From assembly GCF_014633365.1 (NCBI RefSeq), contig NC_068339.1, positions 563,001-627,000 on the forward strand: a stretch of 64,000 nt of DNA. The letters are read 5' to 3'. The DNA comes from Diospyros lotus (taxonomy: Eukaryota > Streptophyta > Magnoliopsida > Ericales > Ebenaceae). A program made the position numbers and the translations under genes. Below, one piece after another: positions 16,701 through 43,700 of the stretch; position 1 is the first letter of the stretch; each line of letters starts with the position of its first letter. The notes beneath the pieces are model-generated. The model worked only from the letters and a program-made list of their open reading frames with translations. It did no database searches and was not told the DNA's origin.

Positions 16701-19700
16701 AGATACAGGTTTGCCTGTCTAAGATAAGTAGAGTGAAGAAGCAAATTTGAGAAGCTATCATAACTATTGAGTGAACAACTGTGGATGGAGTTGCATACTG
16801 ACTCAGTGCATAAGTTATAACCTTTTAGAACGAAAAGAAGCATCAACAACTTTCAGAGATAAAATGAGTTCCACACCTGCAAGCCAAAGAGGTACCAGCA
16901 TGACCCCACAACATGGCCAGACAACACAAAGGTGAGAAGATTTATAACAAAATTTGCCCATGCTGACTCAAATATGAAGCCACTTGGAGACTGTCCAACA
17001 AGCAAAGGTAGGAACCTATACAACCTTGGAAGATACTGAACAAGGAAAGATAAACGCAAAAGATTCTTAGCATAATTTGCCCCAGATGATCCGATAGAGT
17101 TTGGTAGGATCAATAATATCACTACCTGCACAATGACAAAACTATGTAATTGCAACTGTACTAAAAATCAGATAAAGCTCCTAGCTGTTAGCATCTAGCA
17201 ATGCACAAATATTGATAGAAGGGTGAACGAACCAAATTATATATTTCTGGGAAACCAAAATTTTTAGTAGGAAGTTTCTTCAGAGTTCAGACATATAATT
17301 TATGAACATGATTAATCACCTTATTTTCACACATGTAGTTCAAACGGAAGCTAAGAGACTTCGTGTGCCAATAAGAAAATAGAAATTTTGGATAAGTTGA
17401 GAAAATGATAATGCCAACTCCCAGGGATCCTTAACATAATTAGGAAGATCAACTATTTTCCCAGAACACATCTGTGTCCCCCTTCATATGTAAACATTAC
17501 CAATAGCCTCATTGATCCAAGAGAATCATAACGTGGTACCATGAACTAATTAAATCTCAAATAAATTTGCCTGTTCTGCTTCAGAATACTCTGAGTTATA
17601 AGTAGCACAGATAGGAAAAAGGCTTCCAAAAGCAGAAGAAATTTCATTGCTAAAGATTGGTAAACAGTCCCAGAAATTCATGATGGCCACAAAGCCAATG
17701 CACTTCAAAATTGAAAAAAGTTTTCCACCAATTCAAGCCAGCAGTTAATGGTTAACATCCACTTTCTCCCCTTTTCTTTTCAGAAACCAATAGACTTCAT
17801 CTTTGAGTATTCTTCAATTGGAAGGGAATATAATCCATACCCAAGGGAGGTACTCATGGACATTGATCAGTTTTGAAGGCATCAACATCATTCAGCTCTC
17901 ATTTTGTAATACTAGCCTTCAGCTGTAGTGTCAATGTTTGACAAACTCCTGGAGGCTTTCAACAAAAGTCCTCCTATCCCTCAACCAAAAGCAACTTGTT
18001 TGTGTTGGCGGACAGCTACTTCTTTCCTATTGGTTCTTCTTACCTACATGCTCCTATTTGTTCTTCTTTCCTAATTTAGTGCACACTGATATTATGCAAG
18101 ATTAGTGTGATTGATTTCCTTACGTGCTCTTTCCTTATTTGCTTGATTGCTTTGTTCAATTGTATATTCTTTTCCTTTTTTATATATTTCCTAATGTAAT
18201 CTAGATATCATCTAATTAGAAAAATTCCTAATTAGACTTAGGAATGTTGCCTATTATGATAGGCGTGTATGTGTCTATATCGGCTGTTGCTTTAGCCTTA
18301 ATGAATAAGATTGGAGATTATTTTTTCATCCTTTTGACATGGTATCAGAGCTGGGTTCGATCTCCTAGCATTTGAAACCAAAACCCGTGCCCTAACCTGT
18401 CTTCTATTGATCCAATCTCCTTCATTTAACTTGAGTCATGTCTGAAACCCTAGAGTCCGGAAGTTCTAGCAAGACTTTTGCTACAAACGGTACCAATGGA
18501 GGGACTATATTCAGTGGCGAGTTGCAGAATGTTCAAACTGTCTACCAGTTAAATGGGAAGAATTATCTCAAGTGGTCACAGCTAATCAAGACTTTTCTGA
18601 AAGGCAAGGGGAAGATCGGCCAGTTGCTTGGAATATAGTCCCTTCATACGCTTTTGGGGACAATGAAGACTCCCTTATGATGTCTTGACTCTGGAACTCA
18701 ATGATTCCAGAGATCAGTGACACAGTTATATTCCTTTCCACGGCCAAGGAAATATGGGATGCTATGAAGATGACATATTCTAAGGTAAATGATGCCCAAA
18801 TCTATAAAATTAGGACTAAGGTAACAGCCGCTAAACAAGGTACCCAATCTATAACCGAGTATGCAAGTATTTTGCAAACCTTGTGGCAAGAATTGGATTA
18901 CTATCAGTGTATCCAAATGAAGTGTAGTGAGGATGCTGCTATCCAAAAGAAGTTTATAGAAAATGAGAGGACCTATGATTTCCTTGCAGGCCTCAATGTA
19001 GAATATGATGCTGTTAGGGTTTAAATACTTGGAAAATCTGAGTTGCTATCATTAAATGAAGCCATTTCAATAGTCTGAGCAGAAGAAGGTAGAAGAGGAG
19101 TGATGCTAGAACCAAACTCTATGGAAAGTTCAGCACTGCTGACTTTGAAGGGGCTTGGTAAGGAGAGAGGGGTTCGAGAAGAAAGGAGGCCCTTAGATCC
19201 AATGAAACCATCTACCAAAAACAACTTATGGTGCTCCTTCTGCAAGAAGCCCAGACACACAGTGGACAAGTGCTGGACGCTTCATGGCAAGCCAGCTAGA
19301 GGAGGATAGCCTGGAGGAAAGTCCAAAAGCCAAGTTTTTACAGCCAGCATCCATCAGAGTGAGGAAGAGAAAGCCTCTGAACAAGCTGATTCAATGGGGC
19401 TGAATCAAGAGGAAACTGAAAAATTAAGAAACTTGCTGGGATCTCTTGAAAAAATCCTAGGGACAGGTAGTTCAAATTTATCTTTCACAAGTATTACTTC
19501 CAACTCATTTAACTTTCATGCTTCAGATTTATTTCTTAACAAAACTTGGATTCTTGATTCTAGTGCTACACACCACATGACACCCTTACCAACCAATTTT
19601 TTGTCCTACAAACCCTGTCCTAGTACCAGAAAAATTGTTCTTGCTGATGGATCTTTAACAGTAGTGGTTGGACAAGGGGATATATTGATCAATCCCTACC

Positions 19701-22700
19701 TAATCTTGAGAGATGTCTTACATGTTCCTAAGTTGCTCACCAATTTAATTTTGTAGAAATGTAGGAAATGGGGACAATGGATCCGTACTTTATGGGATCC
19801 TACAAATTGAGGAAACAAGTATCCATGTTTCATGGGTTACATGTATCCATGTTTTATGGTTCTTCTTTCTATCTTTTGGTGTGTATATAAGATGTTGTAT
19901 GTAGATTAGATAGGGTGTGGAGATATCATTGTATTCCATATTGTTTTGGTTTGTTATATGGTATCAGAGCCACCCACAGCCGCGATTGATCTGCCATCGT
20001 TCTAACAGACGAACTCGCCACTGCTGTCAAGCGCCAAGAGTGGAGAAGACAAGGGGTCACCTGTTGTCAATTCTAGAAGCTACGTTCATCTCCAGTTTCC
20101 GTCACAGCAAGCCTTTGCCATCAACAGCCAAGACCTACCCACCGTCGCCTCCCAGTCGCGCACCACCACCATCACTGTCGCTGGCATTTGATCGCCCACC
20201 CCCTTGGAGCACAGCCGCCGTTGAGCCTCCACGAGTCGCCACATGCTACTCCCTCCCAGTCGCACCATCACGCTGTTGTTTGCCATAGGCCTTTTACGGC
20301 CATCGTTTGCTCCTAAAACCACCGCCATCGATGTCGTCGACCAAGGATCGGCCTACCCTCGAAGTTCGACCACCATTACTGCTGCCATCATATCTAACCA
20401 CCGCCACTGTTTGTTGCTCCGATCTCTCTCTCCGGTACTCCAATCACGACAACGTTACCACCGTTGGACTCGTCTCACTCAGCCCATTCAGATCTCGGTG
20501 GTTTCACTGCCGACTGTTGCTGCCTGTCGCCGTCCAACTTGGTTGGTTCTCCAGTGACTGCTGGTGGGATTTCTCCATTATTGCTGTCCACGTTTCAAGC
20601 AAATCCATATCCTTGCCAGACCTGGGTCAGATCTAACCCACCTAGTTACGACCTGCTTCAAATTTGGTCAACCAGAGTTGACTCATTAGGCCAAATCCAA
20701 CTACCAGATCCGCCAGACAGATCCAGCAAACCAAGCTAACTCAAATTAAAAGGCAAAGGATGACTGGATCTGCAATGTGTAGTCACTTACTAGTCAATAG
20801 ATCATCGATCCCTACCGCCACCATATCAGACGTTCCCTCCACATATGGTTCCTTCAACAAAGAGCAGTTCAATTGACTCTTGACATTGTTACTGTCCAAT
20901 TCGTTATCTGGTACACCTAATGGTTCTTTGGTACATTCAGGTAGAATAGAACTACTTTAGCCCTGTTAATTTTCTTTAAATATGCTCCATAGATCATTGA
21001 TTCAGGGCCATCTGATCACATGACTAGTTTGCCCAATCTTTTCAATTCATATACTCCTTGTTCAGGTAGTGAGAAAGTAAGGATAGCAGATGACAGTTTT
21101 TCTTATATTGCTGGCAAATGCCTCATTAAAATCTCTGAAAGTATTGATCTTCAATTAGTACTTCATGTTCCTAAACTTACTTGTAATCTTTTGTCTGTCA
21201 GTAAACTCTAAAAGATTCTAACTGCCGCATTACCTTCTTTGATTCTTATTGCCTATTTCAGAATCAAAACTCGAGGAAGACAATTGGCAATGCTAGAGAA
21301 ATAAACGGAATTTACTACTTCAATGAGGATTTCTTCGATAATAGAAAAGCTCACGGATTAAGTGGTAACAGTTCAATCTCTGTTTCTGATCCAATAATGC
21401 AATGACATCTCAGGCTAGGCCATCCTAGTTTTCCTTATTTAAGACACTTATTTCCTGAATTGTTTAAAGGAGTGGATTGTTCTAAGTTTCAATGTGAAAA
21501 CTGTCATTTGTCTAAAGATCATCGTGTTAATTTCGTTCCCAAACCTTACTGTTCTTCAAAACCATTTTATTTAATCCACAGTGATGTTTGGGGACCCTCA
21601 AAAGTTACCACTTTATCTGGTAAAAGATGGTTTATAACTTTTATCGATGATCATACTAGACTATGTTGGATTTACTTGTTTAATAAGAAATCCGACATAG
21701 CAAGTGTTTTTAAAGATTTCTTTTACATAATCGAAGCCCAATTTCAAACAAAAATTTGTATTCTTTGGTCTGATAATGGAACAGAATACTTCAATGAATG
21801 TTTAGGGGTTTTTTTTTTTAAAGAAAATGGTATTTTACATCAATCAACATGTCATGAAACTCCTCAGTAGAATGGCATAGCTGAACGAAAAAATAGACAT
21901 TTACTTGAGGTAACTAGGGCTATCATGTTTTCTATGAATGTCCCAAAATACCTATGGGGAGATGCTGTTTTAATTGCTTGCTATCTAATTAATAGGATGC
22001 CTACTCGAGTCTTAAACTTTGAGACACCTCTAAATTCCTTAAAAAAGACTTTTCCTATGTGCCGGTTATACTCTGAGCTACCTTTAAACATTTTTTGATG
22101 CACTTGTTTTGTTTACATTCCACAAAATTTTCGATCCAAATTAGATCCAACGGCTGAAAAATGTGTTTTTGTTGGTTATGCTCCAAAAAAAAAAGGGTAC
22201 AAATGCTTTAATCACAAAAAAAATTCACATAAGCATGGATGTTTCTTTCATGGAGAATCAACCCTATTTTACCAAAAATTATCTTCAGGGGGAGAATATT
22301 GTAGAAGAAGATAATTTTTTGAAAATTTCTGAATCTCTTTCAAATATGTTTGATATGATTGACACTCCACTCCACTCTGATAAGCGATCTAAGGAAACTG
22401 GTGTTCAAAACAATAAAGAACAAGATACATCTAGCTCATAGGTGCCAAGCATAATGGAGTTGAAACTAAGGGGAGAATTACTTCAAACGGATCAAAGCTA
22501 TACGAAACCTGAGCTTCAGTTTTATTTCAAAAGAAAATCTCAAAGAAATGCTATTGATCCAAATATCCTTCCAGTAACTGAGCAATTGGCATCTTCGAAT
22601 GATGGTCCTTATTCCACTCAGGGTAATTCTAAACTTATCCCTTTAAATTCTTCCTCAGTTGATTTGTTTGATCTTGATGTCCCCATTGCCACTAGAAAAG

Positions 22701-25700
22701 GAGTAAGATCTTGTACTAAACATCCTATTGCCAAATACTTGTCCTATCAAAAACTGTCCAATAGTCACAAGGCATTTCTTTTAAATATTTATAACTTGCA
22801 TGTATCAAGAACAATTCAAGATGCTCTAGGTGATTTGAATTGGAATTTAGCCATAAAAGGAGGAGATGAATGCTCTTAAAAAGAACGGGACTTGGGAGAT
22901 TGTGGAGCTACCGAGAGGCAAGACAACTGTAAGCTGTAAATCAGTCTTCATTGTAAAATGTAAGGCAGATGGAAGCATAGAGAGGTATAAGGCAAGACTT
23001 GTTGCCAAGGGGTTCACCCAAACATATGGCATCGATTATCAAGAGACCTTTGCTCCAATGGCAAGGATAAACTCTATTCGAGTCCTTTTCTTTCTCGTGG
23101 TGGCTCAAGATTAGCCTCTACACCAACTCAATGTAAAAAATGCCTTCCTAAATGGCGATTTGGAGGAAGAAGTGTATATGGACCTCCCACTTGGATTTGA
23201 GAAGAGCTTTGGTACCAACAAGATATGCAGCCTAAAAAAATCCTTGTAAGGTCTGAAACAGTCTCCAAGAGCGTGGTACGAAAGGTTTGGAAATGAAGTA
23301 AGAAGCTATGGTTATACTCAGAGCCAAGCGGACCGCACAATGTTCTTCAAGCATTCTAGCGACGGTAAGAAATCTATTTTAATTGTCTATGTGGAAGATA
23401 TAATAATGACTGGTGATGACAAGGAAGAAATTGAAGAACTTAAGAGGAAACTAGCATATGAGTATGAAACCAAGGACTTGGGACCCCTAAAGTACTTCCT
23501 TGGGATAGAGTTTGCAAGATCTAAGGAGGGAATCTTTGTCAACCAATGTAAGTATATCCTGGATTTACTCACTGATACAGGAATGCTAGGGTGTAAGATA
23601 GCTGAAACTCTCATTGAATCTAATTTGAAGCTATAACTTGTCGAAGCCAAAGATGTGGTAGAAATGGAGAAATATCAAAGGCTTGTAGGCAAACTCATCT
23701 ATCTGTCCCACACTCGACCTAATATAACATTTGCAATAAGTGTAGTAAATCAATTTATGCACTCACTAGGTTCACAACATTTTGAAGCTGTCTACAGAAT
23801 TCTAAGGTACCTAAAGAGAACTCCTGGAAAAGGTTTACTCTTCAGAAAACATGGGCATCTTCACATAGAGGCTTATACAGACGCAAACTGGGCAAACAGT
23901 GTTACTGATAGAAGATCTACATTAGGATACTGCACCTTTGTGGGAGGTAATCTCGTCACTTGGAGGAGCAAGAAACAAAACGTGGTGGCCAAAAGTAGTG
24001 TTGAAGTTGAATTTCGTTTAGTTGCCCACGGGATTTGTGAGGTCATGTGTGGATAAAGAGACTTCTAAAGGAGTTAAGGGTCTCCACTCCCTTACCAACT
24101 AAGGTTTACTATGATAATAAAGCTGCAATTTCCATTGCCCATAATCCAGTACTCCATGATAGGACAAAGCATGTAGAGGTGGATAAGCACTTTATTACGG
24201 AGAAAATTGATAATGGGATAATTTGTATGCCCTACATTCCAATAGTTGATCACATCGCCAATGTTCTTACAAAGGGGTTACACAAAAGTCAATTTGAAAA
24301 AATTAGTGAGCAAGCTTGCCATGGAAGATATCTTCAAGCTAGCTTGAGGGGGAGTGTAAAAATGTAGGAAATGGGGAAAATGGATCCATACTTTATGGGA
24401 TCCCACAAATTGAGGAAACATGTATCCATGTTTTATGGTTCTTCTTTTCTATCTTTTGGTGTGTATATAAGATGTTGTATGTAGATTAGATAGGGTGTGG
24501 AGATATCATTATATTCCATATTGTTTTGCTTTGTTATAAATTTACATTGAAAAACTAACCAAGGATACTAATTGTCGGGTTGTCTTTTACCACTTGTTTT
24601 GTGAATTTTAGGAAAAGGACTCGAGGAAGATGATTGGGCGTGCTAAGGTTGAGGATGGTCTTTATCATCTTGAAGACTATAGTGCACAACTTGGAAAAGG
24701 AAAGTTTTCTCCTGCATCTTTTTTAGTTAAACCTAATAAAGACCTAATTTGGCTTCATCTTCTCTGGTTAGGGCATCCTTCTTTTAGAATACTTCAGTTT
24801 ATGTTTCTCTCTTTGTTCAAGGGATTTGATGTTGGAAATTTGAGATGTGATGTATGTGAACTTGCTAAATATAAAAGGACTTCATTCCCTCTTATTAATA
24901 AGAGAAGTTCCCTTCCTTTTAACCTTGTTCATTGTGATATATGGGGACCGTCTCCAATCCCTAATCTGTCCGAGGCTAGATGGTTTGTGTTATTTGTGGA
25001 TTATTGTACAAGAGTAGTTTGGCTTTATCTTCTAAAAGCTAAATTTGAAATATGTTCCATTTTTCTCAATTTTTGCAACATGATTAAAACTCAATTTGGG
25101 GCTAAAATTAAGAGGGTTAGAACTGATAATGTTAAGGAATTCTTGACTCATACCCTTTCTCATTTCTTTCTTCAAAAGGGAATAATTCATGAATCTTCGT
25201 GTGTGTATACTCCTCAGCAAAATGGGGTTGCTAAGGGGAAAAATAGGCATATTCTTACTATCACAAGGGCATTGCTATTCCATAATAATGTTCCTAAACA
25301 ATATTGGGGAGAAGCAGCCTTAACAACAACCTATCTAATTAATAGGCTGTCATCTAGAAATCTTGAATCAAATAGCCAAATTCAGCTTCTTTCTAAAGTT
25401 TTTCCAAATTTCGTGACTTCTAAGGGTCTTTGTCCTAGAGTGTTTGGATGTGTGAGTTTTGTTCACAATCACTCACCTACTCGAGGAAAGTTAGATCCTA
25501 GAGCCCTTAAGTGCATTTTTGTTGGATATTCCTCTACTCAAAAGGGCTATAAATGTTTCCATCCTCCATCTAAACGTTTTTTTATCTCAGTGGATGTAAG
25601 TTTTATGGAAGAAAAATCCTATTTTGGAGAGTCTTATTCTCAGGGGGAGACTAATTTCTTAGAAGAGGAAAATAGGGATTTGTCTCTCCCTATTTTTCCC

Positions 25701-28700
25701 TCTTCCTCAAATCATTCTCCTGTTCCCCTTCGGGATATTACTCACAGGTCACTAGAGAAGATACATGGAGAACAACATCAGTCTCCTCCTTGTCCATTAA
25801 AGGTTTATTCAAGAAGAAAGACTCCAAATACTCAACCTACACATGCTGAATCGCTGAAACCGAGTTCTGAATCATGGAATTCTAATGATGAACCAGCTCA
25901 ACAAGTGCAACCTTCTAATGCAGCCATGACATATTCAAACTCGGGTATTAACTCTCAATCTAAAACTGAGTTTAATGACCTAGATATCCCTATTGCCTTT
26001 AGAAAAGGAACCCGGAATTGTACCAAGCATCCTCTCCATTTATTTATGACCTATTCTCATTTATCTCCTAAACATAAATCCTTCTTAACCAGCCTTGATG
26101 CCATACCTATTCCTAAGAATCTGTCTAAAGCTTTAAGTAGTGAGAACTGGAAGGATGCCATGAAAGTGGAGATGGTAGCTCTTGAGAAAAATCAGACCTA
26201 GGAGTTGGTGGATTTTCCAAACGGAAAGCGGTTGGTAGGATATAAATGGGTATTCACAGTTAAGTACAAATCTGATGGGTCTATAGAGAGGTATGAGGCT
26301 AGGTTGGTGGCTAAGAGGTATACTCAAACCTATGGGGTGGACTACTTAGAAACTTTTACCCCTGTAGCAAAAATGAATACTGTCAAGGTATTATTGTCCT
26401 TAGCAGCTCACTATGACTGGTCATCACATCAATTTGATGTAAAAAATGCCTTCCTACATCGGGAGTTAGAGGAAGAGAAATATATGGAGGTTCCCTCGGG
26501 GTTTGAGCTGCAAATAGAAGGGGAAAATGTTGTATGCAGATTGAAAAAGACCCTTTATAGGATGAAGCAATCACCTAGGGCTTGGTTTGGGAGATTTACC
26601 ACGGTCATGCTCGGGTTAGGCTTCAAACAAAGTCAAGGTGACCACACCTTGTTTATCCATCATTCGGTTATAGGTATGATAACAATGCTTATTGTGTATG
26701 TTGATGACATTATTGTAACCAGAAACAACCAAGAAGGGATGGATCAGTTAAGAGTGTGTTTGGCAAAGGAGTTTGAAATCAAGGAGTTGGGAAAATTGAA
26801 GTACTTCTTAGGTGTAGAAGTAGCGAAATCTAAGGAGGGGATCTTTATTTCTCAACACAAATATGTACTTGATCTATTGAAAGAAACCAGTTTACTTGGA
26901 GGAAGGACTACTGATACTCCTATTGAAAAAAAACCCTAGGATTGGGGCTGATCTTGACACAGGTACAGTTGACAAGGGCTCTTATCAAAGGCTGATTGGG
27001 AGACTTATCTATTTGTCACATACAAGGTTGGACATTGCCAATTCATGCATGATCCTAGGGAGAGTCATCTAAAGATAGTACAAAGGATCCTTCACTACCT
27101 AAAGGGCACACTAGGGAAAGGAATTTTGTTTAAGAAGCAAGAAACCTTAACATTTGAAGCTTACACTGATGCAGACTATGCTGGGTCTCTTGTGGATAGA
27201 AGATCCACTTCTGATTACTGCACATTTTTAGGGGGGAATCTTATCATTTGGAGAAGTAAAAAACAAAATGTGATTGCAAGATCAAGCGTTGAGGCTGAGT
27301 TTAGAGCTATGGCTCTAGGTGTTTGTGAGCTATTGTGGTTAAAAATTGTGTTGAATGATCTGCAGGTTAAGTGGGCAATTCCTATGTGGCTTTATTGTGA
27401 CAATAAGTTTGCCATCAGCATAACCCATAACCCGGTTCAACATGACCGGACCAAACATGTGGAAGTAGACCGACATTTCATCAAAGAAAAGCTTGAAAGT
27501 GGTATGATATGTAGTCCTTGTGTCCCTACAGGAGAACAATTAGCAAACATTTTGACCAAAAGATTATCAAGCCAAGTGTTTCACAAACTTTTGAGCAAGC
27601 TGGGAATGTATGACATGCATTCATTAGCTTGAGGGGGAGTGTTGGCGGACATCTACTTCTTTCCTATTGGTTCTTCTTACCTATATGTTCCTATTTGTTC
27701 TTCTTTCCTAATTTAGTGCACAATGATATTATGCAAGATCAGTGTGATTGATTTCCTTAGGTGCTCTTTCCTTATTTGCTTGATTGTTTTGTTCAATTGT
27801 ATATTCTTTTCCTTTTGTATATATTTCCTAATGTAATCTAGATATCATCTAATTAGGAAAATTCCTAATTAGACTTAGGAATGTTGCCTATTATGATAGG
27901 CGTGTATGTGTATATATCAGTTGTTACTTTAGCCTTAATGAATAAGATTGGAGATTATTTTTTCATCCTTTTGACAACTTGTTATTCTTTCTTTTTTCTA
28001 GAAACAATTTAATTGTTAATGAGTTATTTATGCATTATTTTATGAAGACAACTATATACTTTGTACCACATAAATAAAGATAATGGAGCTAAGTAAAATC
28101 ATCTCAATTCTTATGGTTCCATTCTTTAGCAACCCGCATTCCTCTCCTCTACTTTTTTCCTCTTTAATATTTTTGCTTTCTTTCCTTTTATTTTTATTTT
28201 GATGGAAAATTGACTCAATGTCAAGAAGATGAGTTATAGGGAACAACTCTAGACATGGGATGTAGAGTGGAAATTCTGATTTCCTTTCTAAAGCAATTGG
28301 GATGATAAAAAAAATCAAGATCTGCAAAAGGGGATATCAAAATCTAATAAGAAAACAAAATTGGAGTTAAAGTCTGACCACTAACATGGTGCCAAAAGGG
28401 TAATAAGTATGCTTTGACAACATGAGTAGGTTTTAAAGATCACATTACTAGGAATGCACATGATATATGAAGAAGTTTGGACTTTTAAACACCTTAAAAT
28501 TTCTCACTTTATTATTCAAATTGGACACATTTATATACAAATGGTAGTTGTTCATGTGGAAACAATTACACACAAAAAAAACTGTTACTTAGAAAATAAA
28601 TAATTGTATAATGAATGGAAAATTGCTTCTATATTTCGTCTAATTGCCTAACTGTCTATATTCCTTGTACACGTTTATCTACACGCCCCCTCAACCTGGG

Positions 28701-31700
28701 CTGTAAATATTAAGAAAGCCCTAGCTTGGATCTTCACATCTTCAAACTAAGTCTTCAGTGGGTAGTGTTTGGTAGATCATTGGTATATAGGAAGTCCACC
28801 TTCAATTTTTCTTTTTATGAAGTGTCTGTTTATTTAGGTCACTTTAAACTGGTTGAGTGCTGCCGATATTTTAATTTGACGACTAAAATATTGGGTGTTT
28901 GAGAGGTCTCCTTGACAATGCTTCTGTTGTGCCTTAGTGTCGAAATACTTCTCCTTTGCGACATTCTAGATTTTTTGTATCGTCTCATGGAGGATGACAT
29001 TTACTCTGACTTGTTGTGTCTTCATTAAGAGTATATTTATTTTACTAGTATTGCAATTAGCATCATCCTTCAATTCCTCTGGAGATATGATTGACAACAA
29101 CCCCTCAAAGGCTTATTAGGATTTGATTTTATGCATCTCTTCTTTTTTGCGGGACTGGAGAGATGGTTGCGACTATGGCTGTAGTGATGGTGAATGAAGA
29201 AGAAGGAGATGACTGGAAATTTCTCTGTGATTGTGGCTCCATTTTGTGACCATCTTCGCCGCTCTCTCTCTCTCTCTCTCACCGTTTTGATACCATGAAG
29301 AAGTTTGGACTTTTAAACTCCTTAAAATTTCTCACTTTATTATTTGGATTGGACACATTTATACACAAATTGTAACTGCTCATACGGAAACAGTTACACA
29401 GAAAAAACTACCACTTAAAGAAATAAATAACTATATAATGAATGAAAAATTGCCTCTATATTTTGCCTAACTGTCTATATTTCTTGTACATGTTTTTCTA
29501 TAATATATGTGCACACATTGTAGTTACTAAGGGTGCGCAGCGAACCTAATAGGCCCAAGAACCATACTAAACTAGAACAATTAGGCCTAGTCTGCTTCAT
29601 TTTTCTAATACCATGCTTATGTCTTCGTTCTACATTTTAGAGAATAAAACAATGGTTTTATTTTTTGTTGTTGTATCAGTCTACCTAAACTAATTGGAGA
29701 ACTAACCATTGGGAATGAATTACTACCCAACTAAGAATTGGTGTAATGCCTTGCTCTCCCGAAGCCTCACTAATTATCCAAAAACTTGGGAATTTTTTTA
29801 AATTTAATTAATCAATTTCCCACTACCCGACTAGAGGTAACTTAACCATGCAAGCCATGTTCTAGCTCATCAAGGGTTAACTTGGTTAAGTTCACGATTT
29901 AATCCTAACATCTAGTGGGTGAAACCCTTAATTTCATTTCTAACTTCATTTGGGTGAATTAATTTCATTTCTAACTTCATTTAATTAAGGGTGGCTAAAA
30001 TCTGTTTTTCAGAGGTGTAGGATTGAACCTCATAAACTCATTTGATGTTTACAAACATTCTAGCTATTATTTAAAATCATTTCTCAACTTTTTCAAAACC
30101 TGCTCAAGTAGGTTTCAAAATCTACCTTTGGTACAAGGCTTCTTTAATTCAGTTGTGTCAGAAAATACCGAAATTCTCACTTATATTCAAGGATTTATCT
30201 GCTTGATTTGTGTTTCCATGTTTCCTTTCTAAGGGATTATATCTTGACTGTATCTTGTAAATCTTTCTTAATTTCAGTAGAAGCTAGATTAGGAAACTGC
30301 CTAATGTAGAAGGCTAAAATTAGATAGTTCTCCTTTCCCAATTGTATATAATCTTGTCACCCTACAAGGAGGAATGAGATTGGTTTTTTCCCGACTACTT
30401 TTGACATGGTATCAGAGTCCTAGGTTCATGTTCCTAGAGCCGGCCATCATGTTTGTTTTCTGGTTAGCTATAGCCGATAACAATATCCAATCCACTTTCA
30501 TAGCTATCAAAACCCTACAACCATGACAGATTCAATGGAATCCAGTAGTACTTTGTTCTAGTGGAAATAATGGTATTCCTTCAAGTGGTCCCAGTTAATC
30601 TGAACGTTTCTGAAGGGTAGAGGGAAGCTAAGTCATCTATTTGGGATCGGACCTAAGAAGGAAGACCCCACATATGCAGCCTGGGACAAAGAAGACTCGT
30701 TGGTCATGTCTGAGCTTTGGAATTCCATGCTATCAGAGATCAGTGACACGGTGATGTTTCTATACTCTGCTGAGGAGATTTGGGATGCTATGAAGCTAAC
30801 ATACTCTAAAGTTCATTATGCTGCCAGATTTATGAGATAAGGACTAAGGTGGCAGCCACCAAGCAAGGATCTCGGTCAATCACCGAGTATGCCAACCTCT
30901 TGCAAACTTTGTGATAAGAGTTGGATCATTATCAATGTATCTAGATGAAGTGCAATGAGGATGCAGCTTTACAAAAAAGGTTTGTTGAAAAGGAGATAAT
31001 CTATGATTTTCTTGCTGGACTAAACTTAGAGTTTAGATCCTTGGAAAGGATGATTTTCCCTCTCTAAATGAAACGATCTCAATTGTGCGTGCGGAAGAAG
31101 GGCGGAGAAGAGTGATGCTTGATACTTCATCTATAGAAAGTTTAGCACTTGTGATGGTAAAGGGTTCTAGCTTAGAGAAGCATCCTAGGGAGAAAAGGAA
31201 GGCGTCTGATTCATCAAAGGTAATTAACAGAAACTCCTTATGGTGCAGCTATTGCAAGAAGCCTTAGCATACCATAGAAAAGTGTTGGAAGCTCCATAGT
31301 AAGCCCCCTAAGGATGGACAATTAAGGGGCTAGGGGCAAGTTCATGTGGCTAGTAGCCAGCAACTTGTTGAGGGAAAGGTTCAAGACCAAGTAGAAATGA
31401 TGGAGCTCAATAGAGAAGAAATTGAGAAACTCAGAAGCCTATTAGGGTCCTTGGAAAAGAAACCCGAAACAAGTACTTGCATTCTAGCTTTTACAGGTAT
31501 ATGTTCCTCTTCTCTTGTATTTCATGCTTCAGATACCAGCCTTCCAAATACATGGATTCTTGACTCTGGAGCCATAGATCATATGACCTGTTCCTACCAT
31601 CGATTTATCACCTATACACCATGCCCTAGCACAAGGAAAATAACCATGGCAGATGGGTCATTGACAATTGTAGCTGGCCAAGGAAATGTTCCCATCAATA

Positions 31701-34700
31701 GTCATCTCACCCTTAAAAACGTTCTCCATGTTCCTAAACTTTTCACAAACCTTGTGTCCATCCAAAAGCTTACTATAGATTCTAATAGTAATGTCATATT
31801 TTATCCCTCTTTTTGTGAATTTCAAGAACAAGATAGGAGGAGGAAGATTGGGCGTGCTAGGGAGAGAGATGAACTATACTACCTTGAAGACCTTAGTAGA
31901 CAGGTTCAAAAAAAGAAAGTTTCTCCTTTATCATTCCTAGTTAAGTCCGATAAAGATAAGTTGTGCCTTCATCACTTTTGTCTTGGTCATCCCTCTTTTA
32001 GGGTCCTTAAATTGTTGTTCCCTTTATTGTTCAAAGGATTAGATGTGGAGGATTATCATTGTGATGTATGTGAACTTGCAAAACATAGAAGAATCTCATT
32101 TCCTCTTACTAATAAAAGAAGTTATCTTCCCTTCACACTGGTTCACAGTGATATATGGAGCCCTTCCACTGTTCCTAACATTTAGAGAGCAAGATGGTTT
32201 GTCTCCTTTGTTGATGATTGCACTCGTGTGGTTTGGTTATTTCTTTTGAAAGCTAAATCTGAAATGTGCATTGTTTTTCCTGATAATTTACTCTTAGTAA
32301 TAAAATGGTTTTGTTAATGACTATATGAAAATCAATCTCTATAAAATGGATTACATAAATGAGAAAATAACTTTTATAATATGAAGCAAGGCATGGATTA
32401 TACAAATGAGAAAATAAATTTTAATATGTGAATTGTGAAGAAAGGTATGGATTATATGAATGAGAAAACAAACTTTTAATACATGAATTTTGAAGCAAGA
32501 TATGAAATCCTATAAAAGAATCATTGAGTTTGGTTGAGTGATATTTATTTCAAAATATACTTTTGATAATCTCAACTTGCTTTCAAAAAGATCTAAATGA
32601 GGTTTTGTTAAAGTTTTCTATGTTTTCAAAAGGATAGTCGACTATGCTGTTAAGGATAGTTGACTATGTATAAGGATAGTCGACTATGCTGATTTGATCT
32701 GTCGACTATGTGAGGCATCTGTCGACTATTTCTTAATCTGTCGACTATTTCTTAATCTGTCGACTATCAAGTAAGGATAGTCGACTATGGCATTTCATCT
32801 GTCGACTATTTTTGTTCATAAAATTCAAAATTTTCTTCACATTTTTGCAATAGTCGATTGTGCATATGTATCTGTCGACTATGGGATTTTTGTGTTATAA
32901 GATAGTCGACTATGCGTTTTTGTCTGTCGACTATGTTTTGTTTTATTTGTAAAAATAGTCAACTATGCATTTTCTTCTATCGACTATGTGTTTCGCAGAA
33001 AGCTTCCAACGGCTATTTTTTCAAATCCCAACAGCTCCAAACGGCTAGTTTCTTCTTCAATCTTTATGGAAGCCTATAAATACAACTCAAGCAAGATCAA
33101 GAGAGGGCTAATGGATGGAAATGAATTGATTTGAGCTTACGGTTTATCTTCGTTTGTATTTACAGTGCTCTGTGCCTTCATTGTTATACTTTTCTCTCCA
33201 AAGCTTCATTCTATTATTGTTAATACATTCATTTAAGCCTTGTTTAATCTTGAGAGACATTGTAACTAAGAGATTCATCTCTTAGATTCTCTCATATTCT
33301 ATATTTCTTATTCTTCCTAGCTTGTGTAGCTAGAGGGCCCATTTGAGTGGGAGGTTTTGTATTTTCCTAGTCTTGGACTAGAAGACCTACTTGGTTTAAA
33401 TAGGGGGTTTTAGTGGATGGTTTGAAAAATCCTTAGTGAGGAACTAAGGTAGTGGATTAGGCTTGGGTTAAGCCGAACCACTATAAATCCTTTGTGTTCT
33501 TCTCTTGTGCTTGTAGTTTTATTTCATTTATTATTTCAACCAATTCAATAATCCTCACTTGCATCGAATTTTTCATCAAAAGGATTTCAAAGTTCTATCA
33601 AGTTTTTTTTTTTAAAATATCCAATTCACCCCCCCATCTTGGTGTGTGCCATAGAACCTACTGTTCTAACATTTCCCATCTTCTATAACATGGTCAAAAC
33701 TCAATTTGGTGTTGAGATAAGGAGCAATTTGATAATGCCAATGATTACTTTAATCAGTCTTTATATTATTTTTTTTCATGAAAATGGCATAATCCATGAA
33801 TCTTCTTGTGTCCATACTCCTCAAAAAAATGGGGTGGCTGAGAGAAAGAATAATCATCTTTTGGTTGTTATAAGAGCTCTTCTCTTCCAAAATAATGTTC
33901 CAAAACAATATTAGAGGAGAAGCAGTCTTGACAGCCACATATCTCATTAATAGGCTGCCCTCTAGAAGTCTTGACTCCTATGGTCCAATAATCTTCATGC
34001 AAAATTCTATCCTGGGGTCAATGTCTCTAATGGCCTTACTCCTAAAGTCTTTGGATGCCTATCCTTTGTTCATATTCATACTCCTCATCGTGGAAAACTT
34101 CATCCTCGCACCCTAAATTGTATCTTTGTTGGATACTCTTCCACTCAAAAGAGCTATAAGTGTTATCATCCTCCTACTAAGAAAGTTCTTGTCTTAGTTG
34201 ATGTTACCTTTGTTAAAGATACTTCCTATTTTGTTTGTCCTTATATTCAGGGGGAGATTGTCTTCTTAGAAGACAAGGACAAGGATCTATTTATTCTTGA
34301 TTTCTCTTCTTCTCTAAATCCATATTCTCCTTATTTGGTCTCTAATTCTAAGGACTTTTACAGGGCATGATACTCGCAAGGGGGGGGGGGGGGGGGGGGG
34401 GTGCAATTATCCAAATCTTCTTGTCCGCTACAAGTATATTCAAGAGGGAAGGCACCAGCTCCTCTACCTATGCAAGTTTCATCATCTTAAACAAGTCCTA
34501 ACCCTAGTATTCCTATTCCCGAACCAAAACTTCTCACTAAACCTACAACTGATCCGAACCCAAGTGACTATGATAAACTTGATCCCAAGGATCTTGACCT
34601 TCTCATTGTTATCTGGAAGGGAACAAGGTCTTGTACCAAACACCCTCTACATTTGTTCTTATCCTATTCAAACATGTCTCCTAAGCACAAAGCCTTTCTT

Positions 34701-37700
34701 ACTAGCCTAAACACAATCCCTATACCAAGGACCTTGTTCGAAGCAATAGGCAATGAGAATTGGAAGAGTGCCATGGAAGTAGAGATGGTAGCACTGAAAA
34801 ATAATCAAACTTGAGAGTTGATGAAATTACCCAAGAGAAAGAATCTGGTGGGTTGCAAATGGGTGTACACTGTAAAATATAGATCAGATGGGTCCTTAGA
34901 AAGGTACAAAGCAAGGTTAGTTGTTAAGGGATATACACAAACATATGGGATAGACTATTTGAAAACATTTGCCCCAATGGAAAAAATGAATACTGTGAGA
35001 GTGCTTTTGTCCTTACTGCTAACCTAAGCTGGAAATTGCAGCAATTTGACGTCAAAAATGCATTCTTACATGGGTACTTAGAAGAGATCTATATGGAAGT
35101 ACCACCTAGGTTAGACAAGAGAGAATGTAGTCTGAAGATTGAAAAAAGCTTTGTATGGATTGAAATAGTCACCAAGGGCGTGGTTTAGCCTGTTCACCAA
35201 AGACATGTTTGGTCTGGGATACAAACAAAGTCAAGGAAATCACACCATATTTATAAATCACTCGGCCACAGGGGGAGTGATTGCATTACTTATTTATGTG
35301 GATGATATCATAGTAACAAGAAATGATATGGCAGGAATGGAAATGTTGAGAGGCTGTTTGGTTAAGGAATTTGAGATTAAGAAGCTGGGCAGATTGAAAT
35401 ACTTTTTGAGTATTGAGGTGGCTCATTCTAAGCAAAGAATCTTTATCTCTCAACAGACATACATACTTGACTTGTTGACTGAAACTGGGATGTTGAGAAG
35501 TAGGGTTGTTGACACACCAATTGAACCCAATCACAAGTTAGGAGATGTTCCAGAAGATGCTACTATGGATAAAGGCTCTTATCAAAGGCTAGTGGGTAGG
35601 CTCATTTATCTCTCCCATACCTAGCCAAATAGGTTTATGCAGTGAGTGTGGCTAGTCAATTCATGCATAATCCTAAGGAAACTCATCTAAAAGCAGTGTA
35701 TAGGATCCTACATTATTTAAATGGGACATCGGGTAAGGGTATATTGTTCAAGAAGGGGGAAAAGTTGTCTCTTGAAGCTTATACCGATGTTGACCATGCA
35801 GGGTCAGTGATTGATAAAAGGTCAACCTCAGGGTATTGCACATTTCTATGGGGTAATCTTGTGACTTGGAGAAGCAAGAAACAAAGTGTTATAACTTGAT
35901 CAAGCGTTGAAACAGAGTTCAAATCAATGGCTTTAGAAATATGTGAACCACTTTGGATTAAGATACTGTTGAATTTTGACTTAGTAGCTGTTGATGTGGT
36001 TTAAAGAAGTCAAAATAAATTAAGATTATCCATAACCAATAAATTAGCAAATATCTGATATTGTTTGTTAGTTGTTTTGGCTGGATAGTATGCCATATTA
36101 TTCTCCTTTTTATACTCATTTCAATTTACATTTTAGTTGTATAAATTGAAGTTTACGATTGAATAAAATATATGACTTTCGCTTTGGTATTTTTTCCCTT
36201 TCATTTTCTTCTTTCTTCATAAAATACCAACAAATGGTATCAGAGCCCTTCTTCTTGAGGGACCTGTGAGATTGAGTAAACCAAAAATGGAGGGTCCAAA
36301 GAAATATGCGTTTGTAGATGTTTCTCTTGAAGAAACATTACAGAAGAGTTCTTTTGGAGATTTTGAGGAAACAACTGCGTTAAAATCATCAAAAAATGTT
36401 GAGGTTGTGGACCAAGTTTCTCATAATGGAATTGCTTCTGCATCTGAGGTTGGTGTTTCTCAAGGTTCATCGTCAGCCTGGAAAAAAAGTTCTGGTTTGT
36501 CAGTGGAAGCTTTGGAAAAAATGATGGAAGATCCAACTATGCAGAAGATGGTTTATCCATATCTGCCAGATGAGGAATCCTTCTACATTTAAATGGATGT
36601 TGCAGATCACAACAACAAGAAGGAGAAACTAGAGCTGCTGCTTATCAACATGAGGAGGAGGAGTTATTTTAACTCTAGTAAAAAATAACCATATCCATGC
36701 CTATGCCCCCAAAAAATGCCTATACCCAAAAAAAATGCCTATGCCTCAAAACCCATAACCATACCTATGCTTCATAACTATAAAATCATAAAATGCCCAT
36801 ATGTTATATCCAAGACGTGTCAAAATTTAAAATTTATATTTGCAGCCTCAAAGTCAAGGAGGAGTGTTGAATTTTGACTTAGTAACTGTTGATGTGGTTT
36901 GAAGAAGTCAAAATAAATTAAGATTATCCATAACCAATAAATTAGCAAATATCTGATATTGTTTGTTAGTTATTTTGGTTGGATATTATGCCATATTATT
37001 CTCCTTTTTATGCTCATTTCAATTTAAATTTTAGTTGTATAAATTGAAGTTTACGATTGAATAAAATATATGACTTTCGCTTTGGTATTTTTTCCCTTTC
37101 ATTTTCTTCTTTCTTCATAAAATACCAACTTACATTTTAGTTGTATAAATTGAAGTTTACAATTGAATAAAATATATGACTTTCGCTTTGGTATTTTTTC
37201 CCTTTCATTTTCTTCTTTCTTCATAAAATACCAACAGATACTCTTGGAAGACCAGAGGATAAGTGCATAGCACCTATGAGGCTCTACTGTGACAATAAAT
37301 CTGCTATTAACATTGCTCATAATGTAGTATAACATGACTTGACAAATCATATTGAAGTAGATAGACATTTCATAAAGGAAAAGCTAAATAGTGGCTTAAT
37401 TTGCAAACCCTTTGTATCTACCGATGATCAACTTGCAGATATTCTTACAAAAGATCTGCCTAGCCATGTGCGTCAAAGGTTATTGAGCAAGATTGAAATG
37501 CAAGACGTTCACTCAATCTTGAGGGGGAGCGTCAGAAAATACCGAGATTCTCACTTATATTCAAGGATTTATTTGCTTGATTTGTATTTCCAGATATTAT
37601 ATCTTGACTGTATCTTGAAAATCTTTCTTAATTTCAGTAGAAGCTAGATTAGGAAACTGCCTAATGTCGAAGGCTAAAATTAGATAGTTCTCCTTTCCCA

Positions 37701-40700
37701 ACTGTATATAATCTTGTAACCCTAAAAGGAGGAAATGAGATTGGCTTTTTCCCAGCTACTTTTGACAAGTTTCTATGTTGCAGTTCCTCTCCAACACTTT
37801 TGTTTAATTCAGTTATTTGACCCATCAAATGTCATTCAAAAATTACACATATGTCATTGGCTTCCTCTTTTAAAGGACTAAAACATATTTAAAATCTCAG
37901 ATCATTTGGGCTTCCTTTGAATCATCAAATAATTTTCAAAGTCAGCAATCATTGGTCTGTTCCTGTTTTGACACCTTCTTGCATTTTAATTATTTGACTG
38001 ACCAAATCTTATCCAAAATTTGCAAATTTTATACCACTGGAAAGCTATTTCAAATATCTACAACATATCAAAATTTCCTGTTATTTCAAAATCATTTGAC
38101 CCCTCAAATCAATCATCAAAATGAAACGTTTTCTGCAATCTCAGAAACAGCACATTGTTCACATTTTGCAACAGCAAGTTTTGAAACCTACCCTCCAGGT
38201 TTCAAAACCTAGACCCCTGTTTGCATTTTGGCAAACTTCACATGCCATCTGTTTTTCTGGTTACATGTACCTAGTGAGACTTACAAAAAAATATTTGTGC
38301 TGTTTCAATGATCTTATAATAATAATAAAAAAGAGAGTATTTCAAGATAGAATGCTTACTTGAGGAAGAGGTAATACAGCAAATAAGTCAATAAGAAAGT
38401 ATCCAGAAAGATAATTGAGAGCAATTTTTTTAGGATGGTCAACTAAGTCTCCAGCACCAACTACTCTAGACTCTGGAGCAACATATGCCAGCCGGAACTG
38501 CAACATTCAAAGTAGCTATGGTTATCATCCTTTAAACAGTATGATCCAAATAAATAATATCGAATTATGAATGACTCAAAGCAAATCTGGGAGTGCTCAA
38601 TGTTACCTGATGTGCGTCATACAATGTAATGATTACAAAATAAATCTAATCAAATATCCTTTTCCATACTTTTCTAATAAATACCTTCTTTGACTAGCAA
38701 TAAAAGTTGACCAACGCTTAACAGAATTCTTATGATCTAGGAACATGGGACAAATCTATACAAGATAAATGCTAAATTTCATATTGAAACTGACTTCTAT
38801 CCTGACTAAATTCTCCTGTTAAACACATACCATACCATGTCACAAAACTCTCAACAAGCAGAATCTAGAAGTTTCCAGATCAATGGATTATTAGATATGA
38901 ATTACAAGCATTCAAAACTAATTTATTTTATATTCATAGGGAAGGGAGCATAAAGCAAAGCTACTTAGCAGTTTTGCCAGCAAGTACAGATTCTCTCAGT
39001 TAAAAGTGAAGATGGTCAGGCAATTCCATTCTTCATCAAAATCACAGTTTGCAGAATTATATGTACTAGAGTTCACAGCACCAGTTAAATAATAACAATT
39101 TGCTATGATGTCTCAGAAAACCTCTCCAAGAGGGTTACTGATGTAGGCGCACCTACAACCCTCAATGAACACACTCAAAACTCGAATTGCAAACACAAAA
39201 AAGGATCACCAATTCTTATTCCCCAAAGCAACTAAAAAAAACCTACAATGACTGAAAAGTGTTTAAATACTGTTAACCTAGATCTCACCCTTATATATGA
39301 TCACTCAATCACTCAAACTTACCTAGCGACCTCTCTCTAATCAGCAATGAATAGAAATCAGAATTCAATCAAGAAACAATCAAGAATTGCACACAACACA
39401 CAAGATTATCCTAGTTCGGTCTCAATTAAAGACCTACATCCAGATTGGCTTTGCCCTTGCTTTCTCCACTATCTTGAATGCCAATACACGATTACATGTG
39501 CCACCAATACCCAACTCTCACCTAGCCTATAGACCTGAAAGCTATATAGAGTTGTATATAAGAAAGATATTCACTCCTTCTCACTGCACATTCTCGCCCC
39601 AAGACAGATTGAAAACCCACAATAGAAAGCACACCCCAAAGCCTACCTCTCGGCCCCTATTTATAAGCAATTGGGGGCGGGAGAACCTACCTGACTGACT
39701 GCCCAAAATGGCAGTTACAACAACCTCGGTCAGACCTAATTTAAAAAATAAAACCTTCTATAAGATAAAACAAAAAATACAACATGATATTTCCCTCACA
39801 TTACAAACCCTAATCTAGTACAAATGTATCCTAACAAATACGATGCCCTGGCGGGCTACAGACTCCAAATAGATTGGATCTTACAGAACACGCCCAAAAC
39901 AAAAAAATAACCCAAACGTAAAATAAGGAAATCGTAAATAATCATAAAAGGCAATTTCAAATGGCTAAAACATGATATTTCGATTCGGCTTGTCGAGCTA
40001 CCCCAAAAGCATATATTATGGGTTGAGAACGGACACCGTATGCAAATTCCTATGCCCATAATACCAAACACCAACCTCTACGATCATATCTTCAAATTCT
40101 TTCCATCGTGCTTGTCCAAATACGCTAATGCAGCTCGATCCACATCATTCTCCCCGGGGGCAATGCGATTCGTCCTCGAATCTGGAACAGCAGTGTCAGA
40201 GCCATCATCCTCGTCCTCTTAAGGAAGCAAATGTTGCACATTGAAGACATCAGAAGTGCGGATATGACTGGGCAGCTACAATCTATGCACATTGGGATTG
40301 ATCTTCTCGATAATCTCAACCGGCCCAATGGTGCGTGCAAATAGTTTAGAATACTCATGCGCAGAAATACGATCCTTTGTCAGAACTACCCAAACATAGT
40401 CCCTCACCTCAAATTCCACATGACGCCGATGACGATCCGCGGACTGTTTGTACTTGCAGGCAGACTCAACCAAATGGGCACGAGTTTCCGCATGAACGTG
40501 TTGTAGATCACGAACAAAATCAACAACCCAACCATGTAATCGGGTTTTTGAAGGTAGAGTAAGCAAGTTCATCGGACCACGTGGTAATACACTGTAGACA
40601 ACTTAAAAAGGACTAAAACTCGTGCTGTGATTTTGAGCATGATTATGAGTAAACTTTGCCTGACTGAGGCGCTAATCCCAAGAACGGATGTTGTTGTTGA

Positions 40701-43700
40701 CCAAGCACCATAACAAATCACCCAAAGACCAGTTCATGACCTCAGTTTACCCATTAGTCTGTGGGTGATAGGCACTATTGAAATTGAGTGAAGTATTAAT
40801 AGTCTTCCATAAACTCTGCCAAAAATGGCTGAGGAAGCGAGTATCACGATCCGATACAATAGAGGTTGGCAGCCCATGAAGATGGTATACCTCCCGAAAG
40901 AATAACTGTGCTACATTAACTGCATCTATTGTTTTCTTGCAGGGAATGAAATGCACCATTTTGGAGAAACGATCAACCACCACAAAAATAGAATCGTTGC
41001 CCTGCTGCATCCGTGGCAACCCCAACATGAAATCCATACTAATATCCGTCCACGGTGCAGAGGGAATCGGAAGGGGACGATAAAGACCCACATTAGTGGC
41101 CTTTCCCTTTGCCATGTGACAAACCCGACACCATGCTACAAACCGTCCCACCTCACGTCGAATAGTCGGCCAGAAGAATGATGCAGTGATGAGAGCTATA
41201 GTTCTATCACGCCCCACGTGACCCTCCCCATGAAACTCCTCAATTAATTTCAGTTGAAGACTGCAATCAAGAACACACAACTGAACTCCTTTGAAAACAA
41301 AACCGCCCTCCAGAATGAATCGAGGATGTGGGCCCTGCAATAGATGGGAGTAGATAGGACCAAAATACGAATCATCAGCATACAAAGAAGGAAAAGTGTC
41401 AAACCCCCGCACTACATCCTGAAGGCTAGTAAATAGGCCATGATGACGACTCAATGCATTTGCCACCCTATTAGACGACCTCACCTGATGTTTTATAACA
41501 AAATTGAACTCCTACAAGAAGGCTACCCAGGCTGCATGACAGGCGGATATAGAATCCTGACTACCCAAATGCTTCAAAGTCTCGTGGTCACTATACAAGA
41601 TAAACTCTTGCTGAAAAAGGTAATGCCTCTAATGCCGAATGGCCAAAACGACGACAAAGAATTCAGCATCATAAGTGTTATACCTCCCTTGAGCCCCTAC
41701 AAGCTTCTGACTGAAATAAGCCACGGGTCTGCCATCTTGACTAAGAACTGCTCCAATGCCCAATTTCAAAGTGTCACAATGAAGAGCAAATGGCTTGGAG
41801 AAATCAAGCAAGGCCAAGACAGGTGCGGTAGTCAACTGCTCCTTGATCACCTCAAACGCCCTCTCAGCTTCCAGCGTCCACTCGAACTTGGCTTCTTTCA
41901 TACAATCAGTTATGGGTGCCATAATAGTATCGAAGTGCTAAATGAACCGCTAATAGAATGATGCTAACCCATGAAAGCTACGCACTTCCGTGATCGATTG
42001 AGGACGAGGCCACTGCCAAATTGCCTCAACCTTTTCTGAATCCACTACTACGCCACTAGTAGACACAACATAACCCAAAAACAGAACCCGATCAGTGAAG
42101 AAAATACACTTTTGAGGGGCTGCATAAAACTGTTCGCTACGCTAGACCACAAGAACCTCCCGTAGGTGACAGGAATGAACCTCTTCTGATGCACTGTAGA
42201 CCAAGATATCGTCGAAATAGACAACCACACATTTATTGATGAGTGGACGCAAGGCTTAGTTCATCACATGCATGAATGTGCTGGGCGCATTGGACAACCC
42301 AAAGGGCATAAGCAGCCACTCATATAGACCCTCCCGTATCTTAAAGGCTGTAATATCCCGAAACAAAAATGAATAAATATATAATTATTTCATAGCATAT
42401 TTGATGGCGATAATGGAATCTAGGAGACAGTTTAAGGGTACTAAATAGTCGAATCAGTAGGAGGGAGTACCCCAAGACGTGCATGTGTTAAAAGAAAGAG
42501 ATACCCAAAGCAAGCATATTAAAATAAGATTTTTAGTGTCAAAAGAAGTCAAATCAAGAATGATTTGCGGTACAGCTTCGAATCAGACTGAAAAATCGAA
42601 TTGGCATAAGAGGCTTTCGGGAAGTCAACAGAACCATAAGGGGGCTCCGATTTTATGCAAGGACCAACCTCGAAGTGATTTCAAGATGAAACAATAGCCC
42701 GGTGAGGACACTGGGGTAAAATCGTCCTTATCGAGTAAGCCTTGAGTTATTAATTTTGCATTTTAAGTATCGTAATGTAAATTAATTTGATGTTTGAGAA
42801 TGTAATTAAAGAATTTCCCAAGTGGAATTAAGAGGAAGTTTGGGACTTAAATGTGTAAATTCCCATATTTTATTGGTATAATATATATAAGTCATGTATA
42901 TATATATATATATGTGCAAGTGGGATGGAAAGCTTAATGGTTAAGCTTTGTGAAGTGGGATGAAAAGCTTAATGGTTAAGTTTTGTGAAGTGGTGCAAGT
43001 GGGAAGTAAAAGTGATGGGAAAGTGATGGACAACAAACTTAATAGCTAAGTTTTCTATGCAAATGGATGGCTATATATATAGATGGAGAAATGAGAAGGA
43101 GAGCAAGCAAATGGCAATGGCCAAATGAAGGTAACAAGTGAAGATGGCCGAGAGCTTGGAATTAGGAAAGAAATTATTCGGGCATGCACATCAATGAGGC
43201 TTTAAAAGCTAAGTTAAGGTGAGTTTTGGAATTTTTTATATTCTTAGAAAAATATTTTAGGAATTTTGGTATAAAGATATTTGGAAAAATATTTGAATAG
43301 ATATTTATTTTAGAATATTAGTGAGGAAGAATGGGAGAAAAATAAAGAAAATGTGAGGAAATTAAGAAAAAAATTAGATTTATGATGTTTATTTGGGTAA
43401 TATGATGATTAAGGTGCTTTGAGGCTTGAGGTGAAACGACTTGTGCAAATTTTAAAGTTGGCACGAAAATCAAGATATTCTGAGATACGTTCGAGGTAAG
43501 TAGTACTACTCAACTGGATTTAGTTTTATGAAAAGGGCTTCTAAGTGGTTCGATCCCAAAAGCTAATTTTATGTAAATGGTTTTTATCATATTGTCATGT
43601 CTTGATGTGAATATATTATGTAGATTGCATTTACATATTGATGATGAAATATGCATATGAGCACGATGAGATTCACGGTCATACGTTACATGGGTTTGGG

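Follow-up and report, generated by a model that had tools for sequence, protein, structure and literature searches.

Introduction

The capture of host gene pieces by LTR elements is already known from several plants. In the accessible part of PMC4717578, 30 TRIM elements from seven subfamilies are reported to contain putative gene fragments; these elements measure 1172-1449 bp, hold exons only and have 5-bp target site duplications (TSDs), and one earlier case, from Arabidopsis, is counted there. The same text assigns elements to the TRIM class by a length below 1500 bp without gaps, by the absence of retrotransposon proteins in BLASTX searches, and by the presence of two complete copies, or of a single copy plus a solo LTR, the TSDs being different. 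A review, in its available portion, deals with how plant LTR elements transduce sequence and switch templates abnormally, and gives Bs1 and TRIM elements as examples (PMC13317346).

Here we analyzed an element of this kind in Diospyros lotus. "The window" denotes the whole 64-kb stretch of DNA that was analyzed. Based on the present data, we consider it likely that a small LTR element captured a piece of the host TIC40 gene, whose product serves protein import into chloroplasts, and subsequently integrated into a Copia element that lies within a CNGC20 intron. In its length of 1270 bp, its two LTRs and its 5-bp TSD, the element resembles in layout GmaRetroS15 and the other TRIMs with gene fragments from soybean and Medicago, as far as these are described in the accessible text of PMC4717578. 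Host and gene are different, most of the soybean and Medicago elements have at least two copies whereas one is known here, and the absence of introns, which was shown for those elements, would have to be deduced for ours. Their fragments share more than 70% identity with the source genes, and the part of PMC4717578 at hand does not mention a tail duplication of the 3' LTR such as we describe below. A transduced gene piece is also found in the Arabidopsis TRIM with a cytochrome P450-like fragment (Witte et al. 2001, as cited in the accessible part of PMC13317346); that case is described as a 3' transduction, whereas the present fragment lies within the LTRs with unrelated sequence on either side. 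Maize Bs1, according to the same partial texts (PMC13317346, PMC4717578), is likewise an LTR element that contains parts of host genes derived from exons. Three genes were captured by Bs1, as compared to one frameshifted piece here. Bs1 is also the larger element of the two. No prior report of the present element was found in the literature, mainly open-access, and we regard it as a clear and well-preserved example.

Results

Anatomy and class of the small LTR element

The segment 35967-37236 is a small, complete LTR element whose sequence contains no N (Table 1). As expected for an LTR retrotransposon, it has direct LTRs with TG..CA ends, a primer binding site, a polypurine tract and a 5-bp TSD. 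A preliminary description of this DNA, made from its letters, had recognized the LTR pair with its exact GATAC duplication and the primer binding site, and both were found again in our analysis. It had also given the LTR length as 266 bp. This is correct for the 5' LTR, but a duplication in the 3' LTR had been missed: the two LTRs have their TGTTG start and CAACA end in common, and the extra length of the 3' LTR is due to a tandem duplication of its final 106 bp. Over the comparable parts (35967-36231 and 36865-37129), 258 of 265 positions are identical (97.4%), the differences being five transitions and two transversions (K2P 0.027). The duplication occurs only in the 3' LTR, and its junction, CAAC/TTACAT, resembles an LTR-internal CAAT/TTACAT. 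The TTACATTTTAG C of the 5' LTR is kept in the second 106-bp copy, and the first copy has A. Since one template normally gives rise to both LTRs, the duplication is likely to date from the insertion of the element or from a later time.

Table 1. Positions of the features discussed in the text, numbered from the first letter of the window.
Feature	Position	Strand	Remarks
CNGC20 intron holding the nested elements	17129..38347	-	between exon matches 38506-38348 and 17128-16877; edges approximate
Host Copia element	30157..37767	+	LTRs 30157-30406 and 37531-37767; RNase H split
Left TSD	35962..35966	+	GATAC
5' LTR	35967..36232	+	266 bp; TGTTG...CAACA
Primer binding site	36235..36246	+	TGGTATCAGAGC; word TGGTATCAGAG also after other left LTRs of the window
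TIC40 fragment	36281..36605	+	sense to the LTRs; left edge uncertain by a few bases
101-codon ORF (predicted)	36287..36592	+	starts inside the TIC40 fragment, ends soon after the frameshift
Candidate weak TIC40 continuation	36620..36652	+	11 residues aligned with RQQLEDMLNNM, register off by 2 nt
19-bp tandem repeat	36697..36751	+	2.8 copies, in the non-TIC40 interior
Polypurine tract	36856..36864	+	AAGGAGGAG
3' LTR	36865..37236	+	372 bp; tail with 106-bp tandem duplication (37020-37235)
Right TSD	37237..37241	+	GATAC

The primer binding site, which we take to be of the initiator-tRNA-Met (tRNA-iMet) type, shares the word TGGTATCAGAG with the sequence 3' of the left LTR in all but one of the five remaining LTR pairs of the window (at 18340, 19959, 30407 and 44823); the exception has TGGTATCAAAC at 10216 instead. 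The Copia superfamily is recognized by the order of its pol domains, with integrase ahead of RT. No pol was found in the 1270-bp element, and the type of primer binding site, common to the Copia elements of the window, is the one pointer to its affiliation, which is probably Copia. The other five LTR pairs, located at 9981-15337, 18002-27976, 19752-24538 (nested within the preceding pair), 30157-37767 and 44590-49885, are apparently Copia elements as well, with LTR identities of 85-99%, the most alike being 44590-49885 (99.1%). Matching stretches occur as two further pairs (92% and 87%) at 39137-40147 and 54600-55034. They lie near minus-strand ORFs (53651-54698 and 40747-41484) that are gag- and integrase-like; judged by these residues, we presume that the stretches are perhaps LTRs of a Gypsy-type element.

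All 17 stop-to-stop ORFs of at least 30 aa that overlap the interior (36233-36864) were scanned against Pfam. None reached the cut-off and three gave weak matches to unrelated families (E 0.04-0.07), in agreement with the earlier view of a non-autonomous element with an interior devoid of retroelement protein. The rest of the interior, outside the TIC40 fragment, had no match in Pfam or in the 64-kb window itself, and Rfam and tRNA scans of the whole window found nothing. The element thus is non-autonomous. With respect to the TRIM class, to which it had been assigned in the preliminary description, its gap-free length falls below 1500 bp and it lacks retrotransposon proteins, as judged by Pfam, where BLASTX was the method of PMC4717578. 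These two parts of the assignment stand; the 64-kb window contains no second copy. Since it agrees with two of the three criteria set out in the accessible part of PMC4717578, we call the element TRIM-like.

The interior carries a frameshifted piece of TIC40

A 119-aa reading frame, used as the first query, retrieved seven TIC40-like proteins (E up to 1), and a longer hybrid probe matched 628 proteins, 120 of which are listed. These 120 of 628, together with the seven from the first query, made up the 127 proteins that were compared with the window by tblastn. The best match, to TIC40 of D. lotus (P0009, 451 aa), covers 36278-36574 with 79 of 99 residues identical (E 2e-43), and 12 more TIC40 residues follow in the next frame. 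Overall, the fragment corresponds to residues about 230-339 of this protein, and the match, in sense orientation, continues for about 325 nt with a 5-nt deletion as its sole interruption. On the strength of this similarity, 36281-36605 is TIC40, and among the proteins listed the host's own is the closest. The identity amounts to 88 of 108 aligned residues when two residues at the deletion are left out; when these two artefactual residues are kept in, it is 90/111, with Camellia (82/111) nearest among the other proteins in a set of 25 chosen ones. In a tree of 26 rows and 112 columns, which also includes the two residues, the fragment and D. lotus TIC40 form a sister pair (support 100/98), in which the terminal branch of the fragment is about threefold longer (0.21 versus 0.073). 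The recognition of TIC40 motifs in the interior by the preliminary description was therefore correct. It had pointed to the region 36233-36864 for a translated search, of which about half, 36281-36605, is certain TIC40.

The frame indeed changes, as previously noticed, and the small frameshift can be specified further: the most plausible reading is that 5 nt were lost at 36568-36570 from the two Glu codons preceding MRN, because the remaining letters read CCA-G-ATG-AGG. The apparent residues D-E at this position are an artefact of reading past the deletion. Upstream of the predicted 101-codon ORF there is another ATG at 36234. The certain similarity ends at WMLQ. A weak likeness follows at 36620-36652. 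Among shuffled sequences, 23 of 3000 scored as well within 4 nt of collinearity and 123 of 2000 at any position; for random pieces of the window, the figures were 14 of 3000 and 97 of 2000. As further TIC40, this segment is suggestive only.

The E-value of 2e-43 and the collinear second piece rule out a chance match. A match running into the flanks was ruled out as well, since outside the element the 127 proteins gave weak or low-complexity matches, the lowest E (1e-5) being found beside a poly-C tract; 23 tblastn alignments start 3-12 bases within the end of the 5' LTR, where the frame is open by chance. Thus, the two outcomes that the preliminary description had set against its own reading, no significant match or a match beyond the LTRs, were not encountered with the 127 proteins. 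Pfam called no TIC40 family on the fragment itself, a search of solved structures gave nothing relevant, and among viral and prokaryote contigs, where there were 11 and 18 pattern matches respectively, no relative was found at E 1e-3.

The element is inserted in an older Copia element within CNGC20

When the small element and one GATAC were removed in silico, the interrupted RNase H frame of the surrounding Copia became continuous across the join, and the resulting 17-residue empty-site reading aligned with 15 residues of RNase H from a sister Copia in the window. Together with the target duplication, this reveals a clean insertion into a Copia element, as had been proposed before. The host copy is decayed, with a stop soon after the join and reading resumed in another frame. 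The LTR identity of the small element exceeds that of the host Copia (88.8%), and the small element is therefore the younger of the two, which agrees with the nesting.

The nested elements sit within a CNGC20 intron of about 21 kb, and the TIC40 fragment is antisense to this gene. The D. lotus CNGC20 proteins (P0128, P0129) gave tblastn matches from 59355 down to 1541 on the minus strand; the first piece is identical in 163 of 163 residues, the other pieces in 69-100%, since tblastn overruns the exon ends. The CNGC20 query matched 851 proteins, and among the 120 listed the best two are from D. lotus, followed by Camellia at 71%. We therefore take the host to be D. lotus or a very close relative; Salicaceae, which a TMQKM motif shared with P0006 had brought up, were dismissed in view of this match and the TIC40 tree. 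CNGC20 fills most of the window. Nested LTR elements have drawn its exon matches out over about 58 kb, and its introns include ones of about 17 kb and 21 kb.

Timing and source of the probable capture

From the LTR divergence, about 3.5 residue changes would be expected in the fragment since insertion. Nine fragment-specific changes were counted with five chosen outgroup proteins, the two residues at the deletion being omitted, three further changes being assigned to D. lotus and eight being undecided. The excess of nine over 3.5 (P = 0.01, rising to P = 0.27 at the upper limit of the LTR divergence) leans weakly towards a capture that preceded this insertion. Alternatively, an empty small element might have inserted first and received the TIC40 piece later, for instance as filler in double-strand-break repair. 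That one copy has been seen so far in the window, that the breakpoints of the fragment bear no mark in the sequence and that the age test is not robust would all suit such a course. Nevertheless, we regard it as improbable, because the fragment has sense orientation and is flanked by a primer binding site and a purine tract that are both intact, because the nominal age test favors capture before insertion, and because the published gene-carrying TRIMs are alike in size and layout and, in the accessible part of PMC4717578, all have at least two copies except GmaRetroS1 and GmaRetroS28.

Of 109 columns, 30 show conservation of at least 97% across the 119 other listed TIC40-like proteins, and all nine changes lie outside these 30 (P = 0.055), which weakly hints that part of the divergence perhaps accrued in a working gene, possibly a second TIC40 copy or allele. 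Several of the nine, inferred from the residues, are explicable by C-to-T or G-to-A changes, which are expected in methylated, silenced DNA. A diverged TIC40 paralogue or another allele as the source is a tentative possibility that overlaps with our main explanation, the mechanism being otherwise the same. It would account for the spared conserved columns and for an identity of 88/108 that is low for a recent capture from P0009, yet the 120 proteins listed of 628 include a single D. lotus record, and the divergence is equally explained by an old capture combined with retrotransposition error.

We also regard it as improbable that the piece came from TIC40 genomic DNA or unspliced RNA, as a single exon or intron-less stretch. 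The observed end at WMLQ is what an exon boundary would produce, but within the captured stretch, immediately ahead of VSQNG, there are faint indications of variable splicing, which suggest that an intron is missing from the element: the close sequences P0012 and P0018 differ there by a 7-residue gap, and the annotated start of P0003 is odd, although plain indels could produce the same pattern. In the accessible part of PMC4717578, the published TRIM cases are also intron-free. No TIC40 gene structure was found in the accessible parts of PMC9162185 and PMC5030654.

Discussion

If TIC40 was indeed captured before insertion, a small non-autonomous LTR retrotransposon, probably of the Copia type, would have gained part of the host gene during reverse transcription. 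Most likely, the reverse transcriptase switched from the element RNA to a co-packaged, spliced TIC40 mRNA and then back, a processed transcript having been proposed as the source in the preliminary description too, and the resulting chimera would have been copied and integrated in trans by the enzymes of an autonomous element, its integration site being the RNase H region of the older Copia in CNGC20. The sense orientation, unbroken length and intact priming sites fit template switching. The fragment itself, about a quarter of the TIC40 protein, is a frameshifted passenger and probably has no function.

Because the fragment is sense to the LTRs and antisense to CNGC20, antisense TIC40 RNA would be part of the primary transcript of CNGC20. 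We think it very improbable that the fragment is not inert and that an amplified family of such elements could yield small RNAs tuning TIC40; if true, this would link a mobile element to plastid protein import. What the locus adds is a new, well-bounded case from the Ericales of an LTR element with host exons, in which the source gene family, the insertion site and the nesting can be read, and captured fragments of known donor may be used to date capture relative to insertion and to read the breakpoints of switching.
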